From a virus: DNA of 22,790 nucleotides. A model generated the notes under the pieces. It was not told the origin of the DNA and made no database searches. It saw nothing but the letters and a program-made list of their open reading frames with translations. Shown one piece after another: positions 3,495 through 22,790 of this stretch (its first letter is position 1; the number at the start of each line of letters is the position of its first letter). The position numbers were made by a program, and so were the translations under genes. The stretch spans positions 1 through 22,790 of the IMG/VR virus record IMGVR_UViG_3300015372_000030. One strand, given 5' to 3'.

Positions 3495-4016
3495 TTATAC
3501 CCGGCCGGCCGGCCCGTAAAGGGTTGCGCCATATGGGTCTGCGGCAGAGAGCCTTTCGGCCGGCTCTGTGCCGACGCCTCGAAAGGCCACGAAACAGTGT
3601 TGCCGGAAACGGACGCGGCCTCCGTTATTGCGCGGGCCGGGAACCGCCCGGTGGAATTCCACGGAGATAAAAGACACGGCATCCGACGCCTCGAGCACTC
3701 GAGGGAACCAGAGAGTTTCCGACAGACATAAACCCATAATGACGGCTGTAGGGTGCCGCCGATACCGCTCCGCCCAATAAGTGAACTCCGACCACGGAGG
3801 GTTGCAAAACACTAAACCGAACCACGGCAGGAATAGCCCATCGTCGGCCGGCGTATAAAACTCTTCGGCCGGCACGTGCCACGGACCCTCGAAAGGTGAA
3901 GCCGGGTCAAGATCGAACTCGAGGCCCATCGCATCGAATATCCACTTAGGTGTGTAGATATCGTCAGACGTTTTCGCGTAGGCGTCGCCCGGCAAATCGA
4001 AAAGGGTATTTAACAC
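3495..4016 (-). CDS. DNA N-6-adenine methyltransferase (phage Dam family)
   Basis: The 173-residue protein matches phage DNA N-6-adenine methyltransferases. The opening YTPKWIFDAMGLEFDLDPAS (residues 21-40) contains the SAM-binding DLDPA element. CNPPW (71-75) is the catalytic (D/N/S)PP(Y/W) motif. LSETLWFPRVLEASDAVSFI lies in the core fold. It should transfer a methyl group from S-adenosylmethionine to adenine in phage or host DNA, probably to evade restriction; the target sequence cannot be read from the protein. The start is GTG at 4016-4014, inside the end of the protease gene. Its place between the protease and capsid genes, in the late head operon, is unusual. Confidence 0.85.
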   Translation of the reverse strand: MLNTLFDLPGDAYAKTSDDIYTPKWIFDAMGLEFDLDPASPFEGPWHVPAEEFYTPADDGLFLPWFGLVFCNPPWSEFTYWAERYRRHPTAVIMGLCLSETLWFPRVLEASDAVSFISVEFHRAVPGPRNNGGRVRFRQHCFVAFRGVGTEPAERLSAADPYGATLYGPAGRV

Positions 4017-4589: not shown

Positions 4590-5810
4590 TTAGGTAACCT
4601 CGATGGGAGTCAATTCCGGGACGCCGGCAGGCGTCTCATTAGGCACGGTGGAGGCCTCGAGCGGCGCCCGGCCGATAACCGCGCGCGCCTCATCGACAGT
4701 GAGGAAGCCGGCCGCGATAGATGCCGACAGAACCTCCGTAGTGGTTTTCTGATCCGCGCGCATCCGGCCGGCGTAATCCCACGCCACCCGCGTGCCTCGA
4801 GGCATAAGCCACTTTGTAAAGGCCTCAGATATCGGCTCCGAATAACGCATGACACTATCCCGCACGAATTCGATATCCGCGGTTTCAATATTCTGGTACG
4901 TCATAGACGGGCCGGCTAACCCTAGTTTGTAATTCGGGATTCCTAGGATCATCGCTACAGCGGCCGCATTCCACTGCCGGCTTTCGACTAGTTGCGCCTG
5001 CTCCGCGTTAGACACAATCGGAGTTAAGACATACCCGGTGGGCATAACCACCGGCTCACGGGTACTCGTGAGCGCACGCCACTTGTCTTTCAATTCCTGG
5101 GCCTGCTTATCGGTCAAAACCGTTGGCGACTGTAGGACGGCAGGCGGCAGAGTGCCTCCGGCAAAATATTGGCCGGCGTGATTCTCTGCCGCTACCGCTC
5201 CGCCCAACCACTCCCCGTATTGCGATAGGACGCCTCTGCCGAATACCTCACCGGAGCGGTTACCGGCAGAGACGTGCAACAGCGAACTAGCGTCTAACAA
5301 TTCTCCGTTAACCGTGAAAGACCAGAGGTTAGTTTCCGGATCGACAATCACCCATACATCATCGGCCGGCAAAGGCACCAGCCAGCCGGGCCTCAGCGTA
5401 CGGAAATCGATATCGCCGAATAGCGCAAAGTGATTCCCGTAAAGGATTAAATCCTCCGCGGCCGCATATTTATAATTCCACGGAGGCACGGTCGGATCAG
5501 GGTCCGTCAAGACGGCCGGCTGGTCTGCAAGCCGGACGTTCACGCCTAGCGCCTCATCCCAGCGCTGTGCGCGCCACGTGGTCTCCGCGATAGTCGATCC
5601 GAGCAACGCGACACCCCGCCCGAACGCGGGAAGGCCCATAGCAGACGCCTCAGAGGCCCACAGAGGCTCGAGCGGGTACGGGTCGCCCGTCAGGTAAGCC
5701 CACTCCCTGCTAGGGCCTCTAATCGCCGCTTGTGCGCTTGTGACGCCCGGTAGCCGGCGCCGCGCCGCCCGTTGCCGCCTATCCCTGTCAAGCCGGGTCA
5801 CTGTGCCCAT
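4590..5810 (-). CDS. Portal protein (HK97/SPP1-like)
   Basis: The product is a phage portal protein, forming the dodecameric ring at the capsid vertex through which DNA is packaged. Supporting segments are GRGVALLGSTIAETTWRAQRW early on, then LILYGNHFALFGDID, the AENHAGQYFAGGTLPPAVLQ region near the middle, and the stem/crown part AAVAMILGIPNYKLGL with TYQNIETADIEFVRDSVMRY. I place the start at ATG 5810-5808, giving 406 residues: it follows AGGGAA and lies 11 bases past the TerL stop. An in-frame ATG at 5882 would add 24 Arg-rich residues and overlap TerL by 61 bases, which is less likely. Confidence 0.9.
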   Translation of the reverse strand: MGTVTRLDRDRRQRAARRRLPGVTSAQAAIRGPSREWAYLTGDPYPLEPLWASEASAMGLPAFGRGVALLGSTIAETTWRAQRWDEALGVNVRLADQPAVLTDPDPTVPPWNYKYAAAEDLILYGNHFALFGDIDFRTLRPGWLVPLPADDVWVIVDPETNLWSFTVNGELLDASSLLHVSAGNRSGEVFGRGVLSQYGEWLGGAVAAENHAGQYFAGGTLPPAVLQSPTVLTDKQAQELKDKWRALTSTREPVVMPTGYVLTPIVSNAEQAQLVESRQWNAAAVAMILGIPNYKLGLAGPSMTYQNIETADIEFVRDSVMRYSEPISEAFTKWLMPRGTRVAWDYAGRMRADQKTTTEVLSASIAAGFLTVDEARAVIGRAPLEASTVPNETPAGVPELTPIEVT

Positions 5811-5821
5811 ATCGCGGTTCC

Positions 5822-7825
5822 CTAATAGACGTAAAAATCTAGCGGCTTTTCGGCCGGAATAGCCGTATCGGTTACCGCCCATGCGGCGGCATGCAAGAAA
5901 TCTGCCCGAATACCCTTATGCGCCTGCGTCAAAGCGCCGGAAGCGGTAGGCGCCAACATCACGGTTGCCGCCTGCCGGTTAAGCGCCTCATCGCCCGAAT
6001 GGGCAAGCCGGCCCGCTCGAGCAAGCGAACGCAACAGCGAAAACGCCTGCCCGGTTATCTCCGTGGAAACCCGCGACACTTCCGCACGCGGACACCACTC
6101 CGACGCCTCACGGGTCGAAAGACTCCGCCCGACCAACAGCCGGCAATTCGGCCGCGTGCCGATAGTGAAAGACGCCCACGAGAAAGCATCTTGCACAGAA
6201 TCGAAAGCGCCACCCCACACTAAAACCCGGCCGTCCGGCAATTGACAGGCAGCGGCGCCGGCCGCTCTCAGGCCAAGATAATCCGCAACAGCGACCGTTA
6301 ACGGAATACCCTCCGCAGGCGCCGCGTAAAGGTCGGTTAAGTGTGCCCACGCGTCTGAGTCAATTAAAGGTTCCACAGCCGTGTTATCGGTAATCTGCCG
6401 CAAACGCCATATGTTGAGGTATTGCGATTTGAAACCCTCCACCGGGTCGTCTTCGTCCGGATCATCCGAACGACCCAAAGCTTGCCGGGATTTCTTTTCA
6501 ATAAGCCGTTGCCGGCCCGGAGTCCAATGAGGCGACGCGAGACGCCACCCATCGATATCGTCAATATCGGAATCACGCGGCGCCGACCACTCGAGCAACA
6601 GGGACGACGCCTCCGGGTTCCCGAAATCGCGCATCATGCCGGCCCGTCTCACCGGCACCAGCGGAGAGCAATACCGATGCGCCGTGGAAAAGAAAATCAA
6701 TTGCCCGAATTCCTGCTCCGTCAAAGTCGGTTCAATACCGTCTTCCACAATGCGCGGTTCACAACCCCACGCCTCATCGACTAACGCCAGAGTCGATGCA
6801 TAACCATAAACCGCAGACTTAGCCCTAATCAGCCAACGGTCGCCGGCCTCCGACATAATTTCCTCATGCCCATTCTGTTCCCGCGTCTTCCACCCGAAAT
6901 CCCTAGCCCAAATACGGGCCGGCCGTTGAATCTCCCGACAAATCGCAAGATCCTTCGCCGTATGCAAAACCAATTGCTCGAGGCCGCCGAAACAAGCCCT
7001 ACCCTCCGGGCTAATCCGCCACAACGCCAATTCCCTAAGCGCAACAGACTTACCGACCTGCCTCGCAGTCGATAAAAGCGCATCCACCCAGACAAGATGC
7101 CCGTCGTTATCGAACTCGAGCAAACGCATAAGGGCAAGCCGTTGCCACCACCGGAACTCAATACCCCGCGAGGCCGCAAACCGAAACACCTTAGGCCCGT
7201 GAGAACCAACAGCGGCCGAATGAGGCGGAGACATAAGACGCGGCCACGTCGCATTAGCCGGAACAGCCCGCAAATCGTCAAGCCACGGCGCGATATCCCA
7301 AACCGGGTTATCGAAATCGGGCGTAATAGGCTCCGGGATATCGATAATCGGACTATCGCTATCGAAAGGCTGTTCGATTCCGGCTGATTCTGGTGTAGGA
7401 CGGATGACTAAGTCGCGGAGCGCCGGCACGACCGAATGTTGGGTAAAAAACTCAACTTTATTTTCTTTCGGCTCGATATCGTTATCCGAATTTCTCGAGC
7501 GCAATTCTTTTTGTAATTGCTGCCTTCCGTATTCGGTTATTGCGGCGCCTAGTTCGGCTCCGGCTTTCTCATTGCAACTAGCGTGGGCCGGCCGCACAAT
7601 ATCGTCTTCGCCTGTTGCTAATGAGTGAGGGATACCCACGTGGTCTAATTGCCAACGGTCATAGGGGTTGATAGGTAGGCCGCAACGCGGACAGTCAACG
7701 GGTAGGCGAGACTGCCAGCGTTTGCGTAGGGCTTGCCATTGTCCGGAGGTTAGGCGGATTCCACCGGCGTGTGTCTTTGCACGGGTGGTCTGGTGAGGCT
7801 TGCGTCTGCGTGCGATGCGCCTCAT
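5822..7825 (-). CDS. HNH endonuclease fused to terminase large subunit
   Basis: This 667-residue protein joins two normally separate packaging functions. Residues about 40-90 form an HNH nuclease domain: CPRC at 45-48, the catalytic LDHV (Asp61-His62), and RPAHASCNEKAG with His81, Cys84 and Asn85. A polar, low-complexity linker (about 105-190) follows. The terminase large subunit then begins near WPRLMSPPHS. It has a Walker A of the terminase type, ARQVGKS (254-260), and a Walker B LALVDE (346-351); the C-terminal RNase-H-like nuclease domain begins near VAVADYLG. It should translocate DNA into the prohead and cut concatemers. Phages of this type normally encode HNH as a separate gene beside terminase. 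No small subunit gene was recognised. ATG at 7825 abuts the origin region. Confidence 0.85.
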   Translation of the reverse strand: MRRIARRRKPHQTTRAKTHAGGIRLTSGQWQALRKRWQSRLPVDCPRCGLPINPYDRWQLDHVGIPHSLATGEDDIVRPAHASCNEKAGAELGAAITEYGRQQLQKELRSRNSDNDIEPKENKVEFFTQHSVVPALRDLVIRPTPESAGIEQPFDSDSPIIDIPEPITPDFDNPVWDIAPWLDDLRAVPANATWPRLMSPPHSAAVGSHGPKVFRFAASRGIEFRWWQRLALMRLLEFDNDGHLVWVDALLSTARQVGKSVALRELALWRISPEGRACFGGLEQLVLHTAKDLAICREIQRPARIWARDFGWKTREQNGHEEIMSEAGDRWLIRAKSAVYGYASTLALVDEAWGCEPRIVEDGIEPTLTEQEFGQLIFFSTAHRYCSPLVPVRRAGMMRDFGNPEASSLLLEWSAPRDSDIDDIDGWRLASPHWTPGRQRLIEKKSRQALGRSDDPDEDDPVEGFKSQYLNIWRLRQITDNTAVEPLIDSDAWAHLTDLYAAPAEGIPLTVAVADYLGLRAAGAAACQLPDGRVLVWGGAFDSVQDAFSWASFTIGTRPNCRLLVGRSLSTREASEWCPRAEVSRVSTEITGQAFSLLRSLARAGRLAHSGDEALNRQAATVMLAPTASGALTQAHKGIRADFLHAAAWAVTDTAIPAEKPLDFYVY

Positions 7826-7892: not shown

Positions 7893-7940
7893 CTGCCGGT
7901 AAGTGGGTAGTGGTTATGTCTGTGGTTCTATGTAAGTAGG

Positions 7941-8026
7941 CCTGACACTGTTGTCAGGCTAATTTACCGTGTTTGTCAGGCTAACCCTGACACCACTGTC
8001 AGGTAGAGCCTGACACTGTTGTCAGG
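7941..8026. repeat. Iteron-like array of CCTGACA dyads
   Basis: Three perfect dyads CCTGACA-N4-TGTCAGG lie at 7941-7958, 7986-8003 and 8009-8026. The spacers are CTGT, CCAC and CTGT. A half copy TGTCAGG lies at 7974-7980, where the right arm of a fourth dyad would fall if spacing were even. Dyad centres are then 22, 23 and 23 bases apart, about two helical turns, so bound proteins would sit on the same face of the DNA. The first and third extend to 8-bp arms (GCCTGACA/TGTCAGGC). This looks like initiator binding sites; hairpins in an RNA leader are an alternative. Confidence 0.8.
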
Positions 8027-8048
8027 CTATGCACAGATAGGCCGCCTG

Positions 8049-8083: not shown

Positions 8084-8413
8084 TTAGCCGAACACGTCAG
8101 GCACCGTAATTAGGTAGGCCTGCCGCCTGCCGGCGCCTGCCTTGCCTAGCGTTTCGATATAGCCGGCGTCTGTTAATTCGGCTATGACACGGGCCACGGC
8201 CCGCTCTGCGGCCGGCGTATAGACGGGATAACCTAGGGCACGGGCCAACATATCCCACCCGCCATAGTAGATATTTGCCTCGATATCGCCTTTAGGTTCG
8301 TCGCGTGAGATAGCGGCCATTGTGAGTAGGCCTATCGTGCCTTTGTCTGTTGCCGTCTTTAAGGCGCCTAGGGTTGCTAGGTTTACGATTCGCGTACACA
8401 GCCGGCCGCCCAC
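8084..8413 (-). CDS. Winged-helix DNA-binding protein, putative replication initiator
   Basis: This 109-residue protein has a winged-helix pattern: a helix around TDKGTIGLLTMAAISRD, a second helical unit WDMLARALGYPVYTPAAERA, a recognition-helix-like AVARVIAELTDAGYIETLGK, and a beta wing RRQAYLITVPDV. Similar small winged-helix proteins in actinobacterial phages and plasmids are linked to replication initiation. It lies next to the origin-like dyads and is the last early gene before them, so it is the best candidate for the dyad-binding protein. The start used is GTG at 8413, 2 bases after the upstream stop, with only a weak ribosome site. Because it also immediately precedes terL, a small-terminase role is a less likely alternative. 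Confidence 0.6.
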   Translation of the reverse strand: MGGRLCTRIVNLATLGALKTATDKGTIGLLTMAAISRDEPKGDIEANIYYGGWDMLARALGYPVYTPAAERAVARVIAELTDAGYIETLGKAGAGRRQAYLITVPDVFG

Positions 8414-8415
8414 TA

Positions 8416-8688
8416 TTACGGGTCTTTTCGTTCATAGTGGGTTGCCCTTTCTACCTCGAGCGAGCGGACTAACTCACAGCGCCGGCAGAGCGCTCCGGGC
8501 GTATCCCAGGACGTGATGGTGCCGCACCTAGGGCAACGGTTCCCGTTGCGTGTACGGGCCGCGTGAGGCGTCCTGGTGACGTTTCCGTGGGCTGTGAGGC
8601 ACGGTTCACCGGGTACGGCGCCGCATACGGGACACGGGTACGTCTCGAATATTGTCCGCCATATCGATTTGTCGTTAGGGCCGGGCAT
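8416..8688 (-). CDS. Small zinc-finger protein
   Basis: A 90-residue protein with two Cys-rich units. The first is CPVCGAVPGEPC followed by LTAHGNVTRTPHAARTR, a zinc knuckle with His ligands that is widespread in actinobacteria and their phages. The second is CPRCGTITSW followed by CRRCEL, a four-Cys ribbon. It probably binds nucleic acid or protein, but no specific function is known to me. It is in the early operon, overlaps the resolvase-like gene by 14 bases, and ends 2 bases before the winged-helix gene's start. Confidence 0.7.
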   Translation of the reverse strand: MPGPNDKSIWRTIFETYPCPVCGAVPGEPCLTAHGNVTRTPHAARTRNGNRCPRCGTITSWDTPGALCRRCELVRSLEVERATHYERKDP

Positions 8689-9019
8689 GAGGCGGAACCT
8701 TGATTTCGTCGTCTAAGACTTTTTCGGGCGTTTCCTTGACCCGGTAGAGGGTTACCCAGCCGCGTTTCTCACGGGTTGCTAATAGCGGCCGGGCGCCTCC
8801 CTGTAGGGCCTGTTCCCGTATTGCTTGCCGCTCGAGGGGTGGAATATTGCCGGTGGTTTTACAGGCGATGAGTAACGGCTTTTTGTCCCAGCGGAGCGCT
8901 ATTAGGTCTGCGGCGCCGTATGAGCCGGCCGCACGGATCACTACCCAGCCTAGGTCTATTAACGCGGCTTTTGTTTGCCGCTCGAGGTAGTCGCCTCTGT
9001 CTTTAGCCCGGTTCGGCAT
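8675..9019 (-). CDS. Holliday junction resolvase-like nuclease (Hjc type)
   Basis: The 114-residue product resembles small PD-(D/E)xK Holliday junction resolvases. It has an early conserved Glu in GDYLERQTKAAL (Glu13), then VVIRAAGSYGAADLIAL (27-42, with Asp38), and the core strand LLIACKTTG (50-57) with Lys54. The family would cut four-way DNA junctions made during replication or recombination, in keeping with the RecT-like and RecB-like proteins of the same operon. The position normally holding Glu or Gln, two before the Lys, is Ala52 here, which could weaken catalysis or be compensated elsewhere. The ATG at 9019 lies 17 bases inside the preceding gene. Confidence 0.7.
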   Translation of the reverse strand: MPNRAKDRGDYLERQTKAALIDLGWVVIRAAGSYGAADLIALRWDKKPLLIACKTTGNIPPLERQAIREQALQGGARPLLATREKRGWVTLYRVKETPEKVLDDEIKVPPHARP

Positions 9020-14085: not shown

Positions 14086-15594
14086 CTAGCGCCAGATGAT
14101 AACTAGGTCTCTCGCCGGGTCAAACTCTGCCGGCTTGCCTCCGCGCCGGCCTACTCCCTTGACGAATACCCACGCGAGGTGGTCGATAACCGCGCGGCGC
14201 CTGTCGATATCGGCACTAGCCCACGCGGCCTCCGCCTCCGGGCCTGTCATGCCGGCTAGCACCCTTTCCGGCCGGCGCGCGTCGGTAGCGGCTAGGGCTA
14301 GTTGTGCGCGTAACGCGGCCTCCCGTCCGGCTAGCGCCTCCGTCATATCCTTGCGCTCTGTGTCCGTGATTTCGTCTGCGGCCCACTGTGCCGCTATCGT
14401 CCGGCGCTTCACCGGGATAGCCGCTAACAGCGCTTCCGCCTCGCGTGCGCGGTCTGCGGCCTCCGTATCGACAAACACGCCGGAAGCGTCGATCCGTGAG
14501 AGCCGGTGAATCATGAGCCGGCCCACGGCTGTGTCGATAGGCTCGAGCGCCCGGTGGATATGCCGGCCCGTCTCGCAGGCGTAGGCCACCGGCAGGGTGT
14601 CTTTCTTCGGGCCGCTAGGTAGCCGGCCGCGTAGGACGCCTCCACAGTGTAGGCACATGGCGAGTCCGGCTAACTCATATTTGCGCGCGTTAGTGTACGG
14701 CTTAGCCGCGCGCGCCTTTTTCGCTTCACCTAGTTTCGCCTTGATAGCCTCATGTTCCGCGACTGAGATAATCGGAGGCCACTCGCCTATGCCGATAACC
14801 TCACCCTGGTGGATTCGCAAACCGGCAAGATGCGGGCCGGCTAGGAAGCGGCCCATATTCGGGCCGGACCACGTTCCGCCTTGCGGAGTTTTCACGCCGG
14901 TATCGCGGAGCCAGCGGGCTAGGCTGTAAAGGCTCTGCCCGGTGAGGTAGCGGTCTACCAACTCACGCACAATCGCGGCTTCCTTTTTGTCGATACGCAA
15001 GCGACCTTTCTTTAGTTTCGCTTTGTACCCGAACCGCTTGCGGCCGCCGTGGGGTTGCCCGGCGCGTGCGGCATCTTCCTTTGCGGATAGTTGCCTCATC
15101 GACATTTTCGCCACTTCGTATTCCGCGTTATTGCCGGCGTCTTTCGCGTGTTTCACGTCTTCCGGGTTCCACGGGTCGATGGTGGTCCGGGTAGCGGTTT
15201 GAATGATGATAACGCCACCCTGCCGGCACGCTTTAATAAAAGTGTTTACGTCTTCCGACTGCCGGAGCGTACGGTCTAGCAGGAAGATATAGGCGTGGGT
15301 GAATTCGCCGGAGGCCACGGCCTCGAGAAAGGCAGGCCAATTCGTGCGCGGCTTCCGCGCGAACTCCGACGCTGATTCGTCTTCGTCCGTGAAAGCCGTA
15401 ACCGGGCCGTGCCCGTTTTCCTCCGATAGCCGGTTAGCGTCCCTTTCCTGCCGCTTGACGCCACGGGTAACCGCGTAGCCGGCACGCTCTCCCTTAGAGA
15501 TAGTTAGCCGGGAGACGCGGAAGTATCCGATAGCGCGGGAAGCCCGCTCCGGTGAATTCCGGAGCGGGCTAACAGCGGCTTGCGCGAGGCTCAT
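14086..15594 (-). CDS. int: Large serine integrase
   Basis: The 502-residue product is a large serine recombinase that would insert the phage into the host chromosome between attP and attB. The resolvase-type catalytic domain starts with AIGYFRVSRLT, with nucleophile Ser28, and continues through KRQERDANRL and YIFLLDRTLRQSEDV, which carries catalytic Arg residues. The recombinase domain follows with GGRKRFGYKAKLKKG, then EAAIVRELVDRYLTGQSLYS and GGTWSGPNMGRFLAGPHLAG. A zinc ribbon follows, with CLHCGGVL and a later Cys in YACETGRH. A helical, coiled-coil-prone C-terminal part completes it. Length is normal. ATG at 15594 overlaps the preceding stop (ATGA). Excision would need a directionality factor, perhaps among the early genes. 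Confidence 0.95.
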   Translation of the reverse strand: MSLAQAAVSPLRNSPERASRAIGYFRVSRLTISKGERAGYAVTRGVKRQERDANRLSEENGHGPVTAFTDEDESASEFARKPRTNWPAFLEAVASGEFTHAYIFLLDRTLRQSEDVNTFIKACRQGGVIIIQTATRTTIDPWNPEDVKHAKDAGNNAEYEVAKMSMRQLSAKEDAARAGQPHGGRKRFGYKAKLKKGRLRIDKKEAAIVRELVDRYLTGQSLYSLARWLRDTGVKTPQGGTWSGPNMGRFLAGPHLAGLRIHQGEVIGIGEWPPIISVAEHEAIKAKLGEAKKARAAKPYTNARKYELAGLAMCLHCGGVLRGRLPSGPKKDTLPVAYACETGRHIHRALEPIDTAVGRLMIHRLSRIDASGVFVDTEAADRAREAEALLAAIPVKRRTIAAQWAADEITDTERKDMTEALAGREAALRAQLALAATDARRPERVLAGMTGPEAEAAWASADIDRRRAVIDHLAWVFVKGVGRRGGKPAEFDPARDLVIIWR

Positions 15595-19147: not shown

Positions 19148-20439
19148 TAGGTAAGCGCCTCGTCCCACTTAGTTGCGCCCATCTCATCCCACCGGGTTGT
19201 CGCCGGCGTATCGTTCCACCGGCCTAGGGATACGGGAGGCCCGAAACAATAGGCACCATCCCACGTGCCGGGCGCGCTATCCCACGTCATAGCCGGGTCA
19301 ATATCGTCCCATCGCGGAGGCGGATTAGTCCGGCAATAGTCGCTAACCGTTAACTCGATTTCGTGAACACCCCATGCGAGACGTTCCGTATATCCCTCTA
19401 CCCAGGCGAGAACAGAGGTAGGCGTCTGTCCGGTAGCCGGCAGGCCCGTAACCCGTAACAGCCCGTGCAACTCGAGGCCTAGAATCGCGCCGGTTTCCGT
19501 TTCCGTGAGGCCGGCAATATCTACGGGTAACGCTTGCAGCATCCATACCGGGTAACTATTCTGACCCAGGATCATATAGACGGTTTCTTCGGCATCCGCG
19601 AGCGTTGCTAATTCCGTGGTAACCGAATATTCATAGCGCCCGAACCGGGCTACGCTCTCCGGCGCCTCCGCGTAAAGGCGCGGCGCCTCCGTGGATTCGC
19701 CTTCCGGTGGGTCTACCGGCCGCACCCCGTAGCCTAGGGAAATCTGATTCACTAGCCCGGAGATATTGCGCAACCACGATGGGGTCACCAAGATATCGCA
19801 AGCGTCTAATTCAAGGGTGACCGGAGTATTCCGCCTATGCTCCGAATCTGCGTAACGGATTTCGCCGGCACGGGTTTCCCACACTAGGCCTCCGGCGCTG
19901 TTAGCCGTGTCTTGCGCTACCTCGAGCGCCGCCCGCGTGTCGATATCTCTGGGGATAATCTCGACTGTTCCCGGATCACTATGGGCCGGGTCAAGGGTGA
20001 CGCCGGCTAACTCGAAAACACGAGCCACGCGGGCTCCGTCTAATTCTTGAGGAAAAGGCACGTCACCCACCACGCGCCGGGCGTAATCCGCGAGAGTAGA
20101 AACAGCGACAATCTGTCCGATACCGGCGTCCGGCGTATCCGGGCCGGCATCGTCCCAGCCGATAGTTAGGTCTGTGACGCGGCCGGTAAAACGCCGGTAA
20201 GCCGTGCCGGCTAGGTGAGTGTCGATAATCACCCACGCTCCGATATCGACAATCGGCGGCAGAGGCGCGCCCGGACCCACGGTTACCTCGAGCGTCGCGG
20301 AAGCGGCCTCCGGCTGGTTAGCCGTGTCCGTGCGCCCGTACCGGATCGAAACTCCGTCTAACAGGCATGAGATATCCACAGGGGTGCCGGTAGGCGTCTC
20401 CCTATCCTCATAGACGTTAACGGTATGCGTCCCGATCAT
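19147..20439 (-). CDS. Minor tail protein (tail tip/baseplate)
   Basis: The 430-residue product follows the tape measure and is the only large protein at the tail tip. Its opening, [20 protein letters not shown] then [16 protein letters not shown], resembles phage distal tail or baseplate proteins, with a tube-like fold. The middle contains [34 protein letters not shown] and [16 protein letters not shown]. The last 60 residues hold a Trp/Asp-rich repeat ([20 protein letters not shown] and later [21 protein letters not shown]). The repeated W-D-x-x units may be a binding element. Relatives usually have two or three proteins here, so this tail tip is unusually small. ATG overlaps the tape measure stop. 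Confidence 0.75.
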
Positions 20440-22790
20440 CCGGTTAGACCCATGCGTCTGTCGTGCCCGGCAAGGATGCGCCTAATCTGTCGTGCCGTAG
20501 CCTCCGGATCGATAGCGCCGTTAACCACGACTGTCGGGCCGGTAACCGTCCGGCCGGCGCCTAGCGCGCGCGGGTTAGCCACGGCCGGCGCTACGGTGCT
20601 GCCCGTGAGAGCCGGCACTAGGGAAAGGGTGTCGGAGCCGTTGCCGCCTCCGCCTCCGCCTCCGGCACCCTTGACAGCCTTCCTAATAGCCTTTTTGAGT
20701 GCCTTAGCGAGATTAGTGGCTAGCGTTTCCGCCCAGCCGTCTAGGGTTTCCTGCTTTATTTCGAGCCCATCCACAATTCCCTGTTGTGCTACTTGCATAG
20801 CGTCATAGAGGCTAGTTGCCGTATTCGTGCCTAGCGCCGCTGAGGCGGCATCCAGTGACGCCTGTAGCGCGTTAGCCTCCGCGATAGCGGCCGGGCCTCC
20901 GGCCGCGAGGCCTTCCGCGATAGCGGCGCCGCCTTCCACGCCGGCATTAGCCAGGTCGCGTACGGCTTGCGGAGATAGGCCGGCCGCCGCGAGGGTTTCG
21001 ATTAGGTGCTGGAAATTCTGTGTCGCCTCTACCCGTGACCGCATATCCGCCAGGATTCCCTCTGCCGTGGTCTGTTCCTTATCCGACAGATTAGAGATAG
21101 CGCCGAAAGCAAGCGCCGCGTTAGTAATGCCGTCCGCGTACGCCTTCCGCTCGTCTTGAATAGCCACTAGTTTTTCGCGCGCGTCCGCTAGGTCTTTATA
21201 AACCTTTTGACGTTTCCTAGCGTTCGCCTCGAGCGCCGCTGTTTCGTCGGATGCCGCCTTGATTACAGACTGGCTAGCCTGCCGGGCCTTTTTGTCTGAC
21301 TTGAATTTCTTTTCCATTGTCGCGGACACGGTTTCCGCTACCGCTTCGGATATCGCCTTGACGCCGGCTAGCCCGTCTTCCATGCCTTTCTTGAGGCCAC
21401 CCATAACGTCTTTGCCGATATCGACCATCACCCGCGAGGGAGAGTGAGACTTAAAGGCACCCTTGAAAGCGTCCGTCACCTTATTCGCTAGTTCGTGGGC
21501 CTTATTCAACAGGGAACCGGCCATAGAGGAAATGCCGTTAAGCAGGCCACGGATAATATCCGCTCCGATACTAAACAGCCATGTGCCGGCGCCGGCTAGC
21601 ATGCCTTGAATCTTCGTGCCTAGCGTCCTAAAGGTTTCCCACACTTGACCTATTTTTGACTTGACCCCATTTAGTACCTCTCCGGCTTTACTCTCGAGCC
21701 CGGAGATAATGCCTTTGACGGTTTCTACCGCGTTGCGCCACTTTGTCTCGAGGAAGCCGGTTACCTCCGTGACCGCGTTACGGATAGCGGTGACGGCATC
21801 GTCCCACTTATTCTCGACACCTTTAATAATCGTCTTGACGGCATCGACAGCATTACGCCACTTAGTCTCGAGCCAGTTAGTAACCGTCGTTACAGCCGTT
21901 TTCACGGCGCCGGTAACCGTGTCCCATCCGGTTTGCACGCCTTTAATTGCACCCTTGACGGCATCCACGGCGCTCTGCCAGGCGGTTACTAGGAACCGGG
22001 CTACCGCTCCGATAACCGTTTTAATCAGGGTGAAAGACGCATCCACGAAATTGCGGAACCATGAAACCTTTTTGTAAGCGACAACTAGCGCAACACCTAT
22101 GGCGACAATCGCTAGGGCTACTAGGGCAATAGGCGCGGACAGCAGAGCGGTTACCGCTAGCGCCGCGTTCATTACCACGATAGCGGCAGCAATTCCGCCG
22201 ATAACTCCGATAAGGATAGACGTAACCGTCTGATTCTTTTCCATCCACGCAAAGAGTTTGCCTAGGGCCTCGACCACGACGGTTATAGCCGGCAACAGCG
22301 CCGTACCTAGCGCCGCTTGCATATCTTCCATTTTCGCGGAGGTACGTTGCGCCTGCCCGGCCGCAGTATCGGATTCGCGTGCGAAAGCGCCGTGCGCGTC
22401 TGCGCTCTGTTCCGTGACTAGGGCTAGTAGCGCCGCTGTTTTCGCTTGCTTAGCCTGCGTTCCCTCGAGTTTGTCGGTTCCGTCTGCCGCCATGCGGGCC
22501 GCAATATCCGCCTGTTTGATTGAAATGCCGTACTTTTCGATGGGGTCGGTTTCACCACGGAGAGCGGAGCCTAGGGCCTCGACCGCTTGCGCCGCTGTGC
22601 CGCCGAATTGTGCGGATAGATCAGCGCCGGTCTTAATCAGGCCTTTAGTCTTATCCGCTACCTTGCCTAACGGCACGCCCATATTCTTGAGTTGCGCGCC
22701 TAGGACGGTAGCCATTTCCTCATATTGCGATGAGGCTAGGCCTACGGAATCAGCGGAGGTTTTAGCCCACTTATGCACACTGTCGGCACT
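20436..22790 (-). CDS. Tape measure protein, main part (5' end cut by window)
   Basis: This 784-codon stretch is the rest of the gene beginning at 120-1. It opens with SADSVHKWAKTSADSVGL, then YEEMATVLGAQLKNMGVPLG and DPIEKYGISIKQADIAARM, all typical of siphophage tape measure proteins. It has hydrophobic segments (ILIGVIGGIAAAIVVMNAAL, then a further stretch to VALVVAYKK), a 40-residue repeat region, and the FKSHSPSRVMVDIG element found in many such proteins. The C-terminal third is helical with a Gly-rich stretch (GAGGGGGGGNGS). It sets tail length and probably crosses the host membrane. It ends in an ATGA overlap with the minor tail gene. Confidence 0.9.
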   Translation of the reverse strand, partial: SADSVHKWAKTSADSVGLASSQYEEMATVLGAQLKNMGVPLGKVADKTKGLIKTGADLSAQFGGTAAQAVEALGSALRGETDPIEKYGISIKQADIAARMAADGTDKLEGTQAKQAKTAALLALVTEQSADAHGAFARESDTAAGQAQRTSAKMEDMQAALGTALLPAITVVVEALGKLFAWMEKNQTVTSILIGVIGGIAAAIVVMNAALAVTALLSAPIALVALAIVAIGVALVVAYKKVSWFRNFVDASFTLIKTVIGAVARFLVTAWQSAVDAVKGAIKGVQTGWDTVTGAVKTAVTTVTNWLETKWRNAVDAVKTIIKGVENKWDDAVTAIRNAVTEVTGFLETKWRNAVETVKGIISGLESKAGEVLNGVKSKIGQVWETFRTLGTKIQGMLAGAGTWLFSIGADIIRGLLNGISSMAGSLLNKAHELANKVTDAFKGAFKSHSPSRVMVDIGKDVMGGLKKGMEDGLAGVKAISEAVAETVSATMEKKFKSDKKARQASQSVIKAASDETAALEANARKRQKVYKDLADAREKLVAIQDERKAYADGITNAALAFGAISNLSDKEQTTAEGILADMRSRVEATQNFQHLIETLAAAGLSPQAVRDLANAGVEGGAAIAEGLAAGGPAAIAEANALQASLDAASAALGTNTATSLYDAMQVAQQGIVDGLEIKQETLDGWAETLATNLAKALKKAIRKAVKGAGGGGGGGNGSDTLSLVPALTGSTVAPAVANPRALGAGRTVTGPTVVVNGAIDPEATARQIRRILAGHDRRMGLTG
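21680..21980 (-). repeat. Two and a half 40-residue repeats in the tape measure gene
   Basis: Units start at Trp codons at 21980, 21860 and 21740, exactly 120 bases apart. They begin WQSAVDAVKGAIKGV, WRNAVDAVKTIIKGV and WRNAVETVKGIISGL. The first two units end NWLETK and GFLETK. Such repeats can change tail length in 40-residue steps. Confidence 0.85.

Follow-up and report, generated by a model that had tools for sequence, protein, structure and literature searches.

In bacteriophage HK97, the HNH protein gp74 stimulates the cleavage of cos (PMC9410871); it is a separate protein, and the terminase large subunit (TerL) of this phage keeps its own catalytic residues D302, D388 and D471 (PMC9410871). 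An HNH gene is also found at the genome end of four isolated phages whose TerL is 22-26% identical to the TerL described here, i.e. BFK20 and phi674 of Corynebacterium, TaylorSipht of Arthrobacter and Ghobes of Gordonia. Judged from the deposited ends, HNH is the last gene before the right end in BFK20, TaylorSipht and Ghobes, and an unannotated HNH ORF lies shortly before the right end of phi674, in the last 260 nt of locus L121 (phi674 39500-43193). The terminase genes of all four phages lie at the left end, with a C-run close inside it, and the end of BFK20 is annotated as a 13-nt 3' protruding cos. In each of them the HNH gene has its own stop before the genome end and TerL has its own start; the two are not covalently fused, and no reading frame spans the ends. 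A gene for the small terminase subunit (TerS) is annotated or likely in three of them, BFK20, phi674 and TaylorSipht.

The window analysed here, i.e. the whole stretch of DNA of 22,790 bp, is a complete IMG/VR virus record, in which HNH and TerL are encoded by a single open reading frame (5822-7825, minus strand, 667 aa, from ATG to TAG). In contrast to HK97, the two are thus fused, the nuclease residues of TerL are eroded, and cos is predicted to lie inside the gene. The original prediction, which left the strand unstated, had described one unbroken frame of 667 codons, and the ORF check bore this out: the uninterrupted frame runs from 7825 to 5822, while the plus-strand frame over the same positions contains many stops. 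A missed stop or frameshift between the domains is ruled out, as relatives at 44-57% identity carry the intact fusion and keep its frame; it is further countered by the contig ends described below, which when joined give an ORF of exactly the expected length. PHROG profiles for both TerL (phrog_9, residues 190-513, E 1.7e-17) and HNH (phrog_338, residues 20-123, E 1e-4) match the same 667-aa chain. The AlphaFold2 model of the fusion, computed with 42 relatives, has a mean pLDDT of 84 and shows two ordered parts around a disordered stretch at residues 116-159 (pLDDT <50), which falls in the inter-domain linker (residues 109-170; 7316-7501, minus strand). The best solved-structure match of the full model in Foldseek is the HK97 TerL (E 3.7e-20).

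The HNH nuclease domain (residues 20-108; 7502-7768, minus strand) carries Cys45, Cys48, Asp61-His62, His81 and Cys84-Asn85, at the positions originally assigned to them. Its motif of CxxC, DH, H and CN, in a beta-beta-alpha-metal fold, is near-invariant among the domain-bearing members of the family, with His62 and Cys45 each present in 25 of 26. The Pfam HNH model scored the fusion at 15.8 bits, under its cut-off of 21.4. When the domain was modelled alone, the closest solved fold was a weak match (probability 0.85-0.95, E 0.08-0.24) to 4H9D, the HNH nicking endonuclease of Geobacter metallireducens, which is a stand-alone enzyme, whereas the HNH domain here is fused to TerL.

The TerL part shares its fold and motor motifs with the HK97 TerL (6Z6D; profile E 7.4e-17). 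As had been claimed, it contains a terminase ATPase with Walker A (ARQVGKS, residues 254-260; 7046-7066, minus strand) and Walker B (residues 346-351; 6773-6790, minus strand) ending in Asp350-Glu351; Arg255, Gly258 and Lys259 of the former and both acidic residues of the latter are invariant in the 42 relatives. The two motifs are those of an ASCE ATPase. On the other hand, the claim of a complete nuclease part was wrong. The RNase H-like domain (residues 505-655; 5861-6313, minus strand) is present, but alignment to HK97 places Ala514, Gly566 and Asp642 at D302, D388 and D471, i.e. of the three catalytic Asp residues only the last is kept, and we therefore refer to the protein as a TerL motor with an eroded nuclease. 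Across the 42 members the three positions are mostly Glu, Gly and Asp; the second is Gly in 40 of them, and the third is His in six. Asp515, beside the first position, is nearly invariant, and together with Asp642 is retained in most members of the group of relatives to which the window belongs (group 1). From these substitutions the RNase H site of TerL is probably impaired, while the near-invariance of Asp515 leaves room for some activity that may persist. The first idea, that loss of the second Asp is tied to the fusion, was rejected, since the unfused TerL proteins of BFK20, phi674 and TaylorSipht lack it too; the erosion may thus predate the fusion, in phages with HNH already beside cos.

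IMG/VR was searched first with the protein sequence and afterwards with an alignment built on it; of the 213 relatives obtained, we kept 80. The HNH-TerL fusion is present in about 25 distinct contigs of IMG/VR, as well as in a prophage of Nocardioides sp. J54, where genes for portal, protease, capsid and tape measure come after it. Among contigs that cover the N-terminus, a domain of the CxxC...H...CN type nearly always stands in frame before TerL. One exception is L086, whose TerL starts independently beyond the cos-like site; in the other (L095 9483-9953, a Nocardioides alcanivorans prophage) the HNH frame crosses this site and overlaps with TerL, which is read in a different frame. The latter could reflect a frameshift, a sequencing error or an intermediate. 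In genome contigs, a search with the single protein gave no match and a profile search gave two prophage relatives, those of J54 (fused) and N. alcanivorans; a class-wide genome search found no further fused prophage at high score, and among isolated phages no such fusion was found. A scan anchored on HNH recovered the known members and three further contigs, one of which (L133) ends shortly after HNH. The other two (L134 2206-2457 and L135 2501-2794) carry the same HNH type, which ends in Trp-stop and is followed by an unfused and unrelated TerL (PRQSGKT), suggesting that an HNH next to cos is not confined to this TerL family. In the viral model library (UniProt/BFVD), two proteins of uncultured Caudovirales phages, A0A6J5RK67 and A0A6J5QUV0 (586 and 602 aa), gave full-length structural matches at 18-22% identity over the whole fusion model. 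They are named by domain only ("HNHc domain containing"), and no description of them was found in the literature searched. The part of the original prediction that the fusion is real stands, and its conservation can be added, but the fusion is not unique: the search proposed there for the same domain order found it in IMG/VR, in the J54 prophage and in UniProt, so the order is not new to sequence databases.

The original prediction overlooked what matters most here, namely that the gene itself appears to contain the cut site. In group 1, 24 contigs begin in the linker between HNH and TerL, 12-71 codons before the conserved TerL block, and a cos-like element lies at a similar distance from this block in the continuous relatives. 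The prediction was made that, with genuine DNA termini, each such contig should carry the missing half of the gene at its opposite end. An HNH half was indeed found there in five of the 24 (G002, G010, G013, G018 and G021), which are long enough to reach it, the rest being mostly short fragments. A further contig, G001, also has HNH at its far end, and its TerL end stops further inside the gene. Three longer contigs that end at the site (G006, G008 and G024) have no HNH half of this type at the far end, perhaps because they stop short.

The HNH frame at the right ends is open up to the end of the contig. The two ends share a 14-nt terminal repeat in G002, 9 nt in G018 and G021 (CCCGTGCCG and CCCGTGTCT, respectively) and 5 nt in G013, and the ends of all four join in frame; the right side of G010 stops before the site. 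When G002 is joined over its repeat, the product has 719 aa, which is the length of the continuous relative L004; there are no indels between the two, and where they differ in the HNH and TerL parts the changes are mostly synonymous. The same virus was also found both cut and continuous: L037 matches part of L025 at 100% identity along its full length, and the pairs L021/L017 and L076/L079 are identical at 99.8% and 99.4%; L037 and L021 begin in the linker. Furthermore, L040 and L041, which come from different samples, have the same end point and are 100% identical except for 6-7 purine-rich terminal bases, and between L023 and L024, too, the first bases differ. Such short tails are typical of libraries in which bases are added to free 3' ends, and would mark real DNA ends. 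Taken at the level of sequence, these observations suggest that the contig ends correspond to the cohesive ends of the virion DNA, and that a cos site inside the fused gene is well supported in the relatives and predicted for the window.

The cut is bracketed by a motif consisting of a T-run, about 26-38 nt, the cut, about 10-25 nt and a C-run. As a plain regular expression, the motif occurs in 17 of the 52 loci with upstream DNA (expected, 0.003 each per 520 nt), and many of the loci without it begin at a contig end and therefore cannot carry both runs; L005 lacks the T-run. In the window the motif lies in the linker at 7398-7450, all on the minus strand: a T-run TTTTTT (7445-7450), which codes for Phe-Phe around residue 126, as the left landmark, and a degenerate C-run ATCCGTCC (7398-7405) to the right of the predicted cut. 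Between them is the predicted 9-nt cohesive end GCTCCGCGA (7413-7421). The record is continuous across this position, and an exact-DNA search found no contig of the same species; the cut site in the window virus is thus transferred from the relatives, and its exact position should be read as probable. HK97 TerS binds 15-29 bp from the cut (PMC11331095), which is where the C-run lies here, though this may be a parallel only. Other relatives form a second group and have different HNH types; there the motif and the contig ends immediately precede the start codon of the fusion gene, which places cos outside the frame.

Next downstream of the fusion gene is the portal protein gene (4590-5810, minus strand; the listed ORF opens at 5882, and the likely start is the ATG at 5810), followed by protease-like and capsid genes. 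A Dam-like DNA methyltransferase gene (3495-4016) lies between the protease-like and major capsid genes, which is an unusual place for it. Both ends of the record fall in or beside the tape-measure gene (1-564 and 20436-22790), and from this gene order the record looks like a circle opened in the tape-measure gene and assembled across the predicted cos, which suggests that it is close to the whole genome of about 23 kb. Upstream of the fusion, three to four palindromic sites GCCTGACACTGTTGTCAGGC form an array (7940-8029) and are probable operators; at the corresponding position in G001 and G010 there are arrays of palindromes that are unrelated to these (L103 527-606 and L107 1059-1104). No TerS model matched among the window ORFs tested. 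A winged-helix-like ORF just upstream (8084-8413) was considered as a general TerS partner, but this was unsupported, as it has a homologue only in L017, L018 and G001. A few genes further upstream, an Hjc-like Holliday junction resolvase (8675-9019; Pfam 30.2 bits) is retained in relatives. The window also encodes a serine integrase (14086-15594), which makes the phage probably temperate, and both the prophage relatives in Nocardioides and the TerL matches from actinophages point to a probably actinobacterial host.

We consider it likely, at roughly three chances in four, that the gene encodes a packaging enzyme in one polypeptide, made up of HNH, linker and TerL motor, in a temperate cos-type siphophage whose cos lies in the linker-coding DNA. 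In the virion, the linear genome would then begin with the TerL half on the left and finish with the HNH half on the right. After injection, annealing and sealing of the cohesive ends would make the frame whole again, and the gene would likewise be intact in the prophage and in the concatemer. Late in infection, HNH-TerL would be made and would bind the cos element between the T-run and the C-run, HNH would make a staggered cut, and the TerL part would translocate the DNA, so that every cut would split the gene encoding the enzyme. As the triad is eroded while the HNH active site is kept, HNH is favoured as the cutter of cos. In the proposal of a compact one-protein packaging nuclease in which HNH may cut the ends, the fusion is therefore confirmed, and the role of HNH has been strengthened by the eroded triad, the intact HNH and the presence of HNH at the cos of the isolates. 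A stronger version, in which cos is a coding sequence of the terminase gene and HNH replaces a dead TerL nuclease in a self-limiting terminase tied to end joining, is given somewhat less than an even chance; in this version all virions would contain the gene in two pieces, circularisation alone would rebuild it, and every packaging cut by HNH would destroy it.

Several other explanations were weighed against this reading. The linker ends might be assembly breaks in a gene that is simply fused, with cos elsewhere; all of them come from metagenome assemblies, and short homopolymers occur in the region. We regard this as improbable, because the two gene halves lie at opposite ends of the same contigs with terminal repeats of 9-14 nt, contigs of independent origin end at one identical base but differ in their tails, and the deposited ends of the isolates are flanked by HNH and terminase genes, with a similar C-run inside the left end. 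It is less probable still that HNH is a selfish homing-type endonuclease settled in terL with no packaging role. HNH is a common fold of homing nucleases and terminase genes are known homes of inteins, both of which would fit such an origin; mycobacteriophage inteins are reportedly the subject of one paper. This explanation is opposed by the HNH at the same place beside cos in both fused and unfused phages, by its conserved active site across very divergent members, and by the fact that no separate uninterrupted allele was seen, except HNH as its own gene beside cos.

The remaining alternatives concern how the protein would work. Both nucleases might cut, TerL RNase H nicking one strand and the fused HNH the other to give a staggered end, an option that has been proposed for HK97, where the 3' overhang would come from one TerL and one gp74 cut (PMC11331095). 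The retention of Asp515 and Asp642 in most group 1 members agrees with it, but with Gly at the second position nearly throughout, Ala at the first in the window and His at the third in some members, we consider it rather unlikely, if still the most plausible of these alternatives. Somewhat more doubtful is the possibility that the parts work separately, either because a protease cleaves the fusion or because an internal start gives additional TerL on its own. In favour of this, the linker is long, with predicted disorder, and an internal GTG, TTG or ATG follows cos in some relatives; almost none of these has a ribosome-binding site, however, and between cos and the TerL block there is no in-frame ATG, GTG or TTG in the window and about half of the relatives. 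It thus seems that translation of TerL begins at the HNH start, for which the DNA has to be joined, and the fusion presumably acts uncleaved.

If the cut falls inside it, the gene would be whole only when the genome ends are joined. No description of such a cos-spanning gene was found in the literature searched, where the sole phrase match for a gene that crosses genome ends came from work on cluster C1 mycobacteriophages, whose ends are circularly permuted (PMC7441234). From its sequence, the arrangement can be regarded as a variant of HNH-assisted cos packaging, of which the fusion itself is already in UniProt. The question of why many cos phages depend on an HNH protein next to TerL, and of which nuclease makes which nick, also raised by HK97, becomes testable here with a single protein and two mutants, since both nucleases are in one chain, with the TerL site eroded and that of HNH intact. 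In practice, the annotation of linear genomes would halve such genes and miss them. If true, a packaging site within the packaging gene would be an unusual device of gene control, and the terminase gene would not be a unit in the infecting molecule, being cut by its own product.
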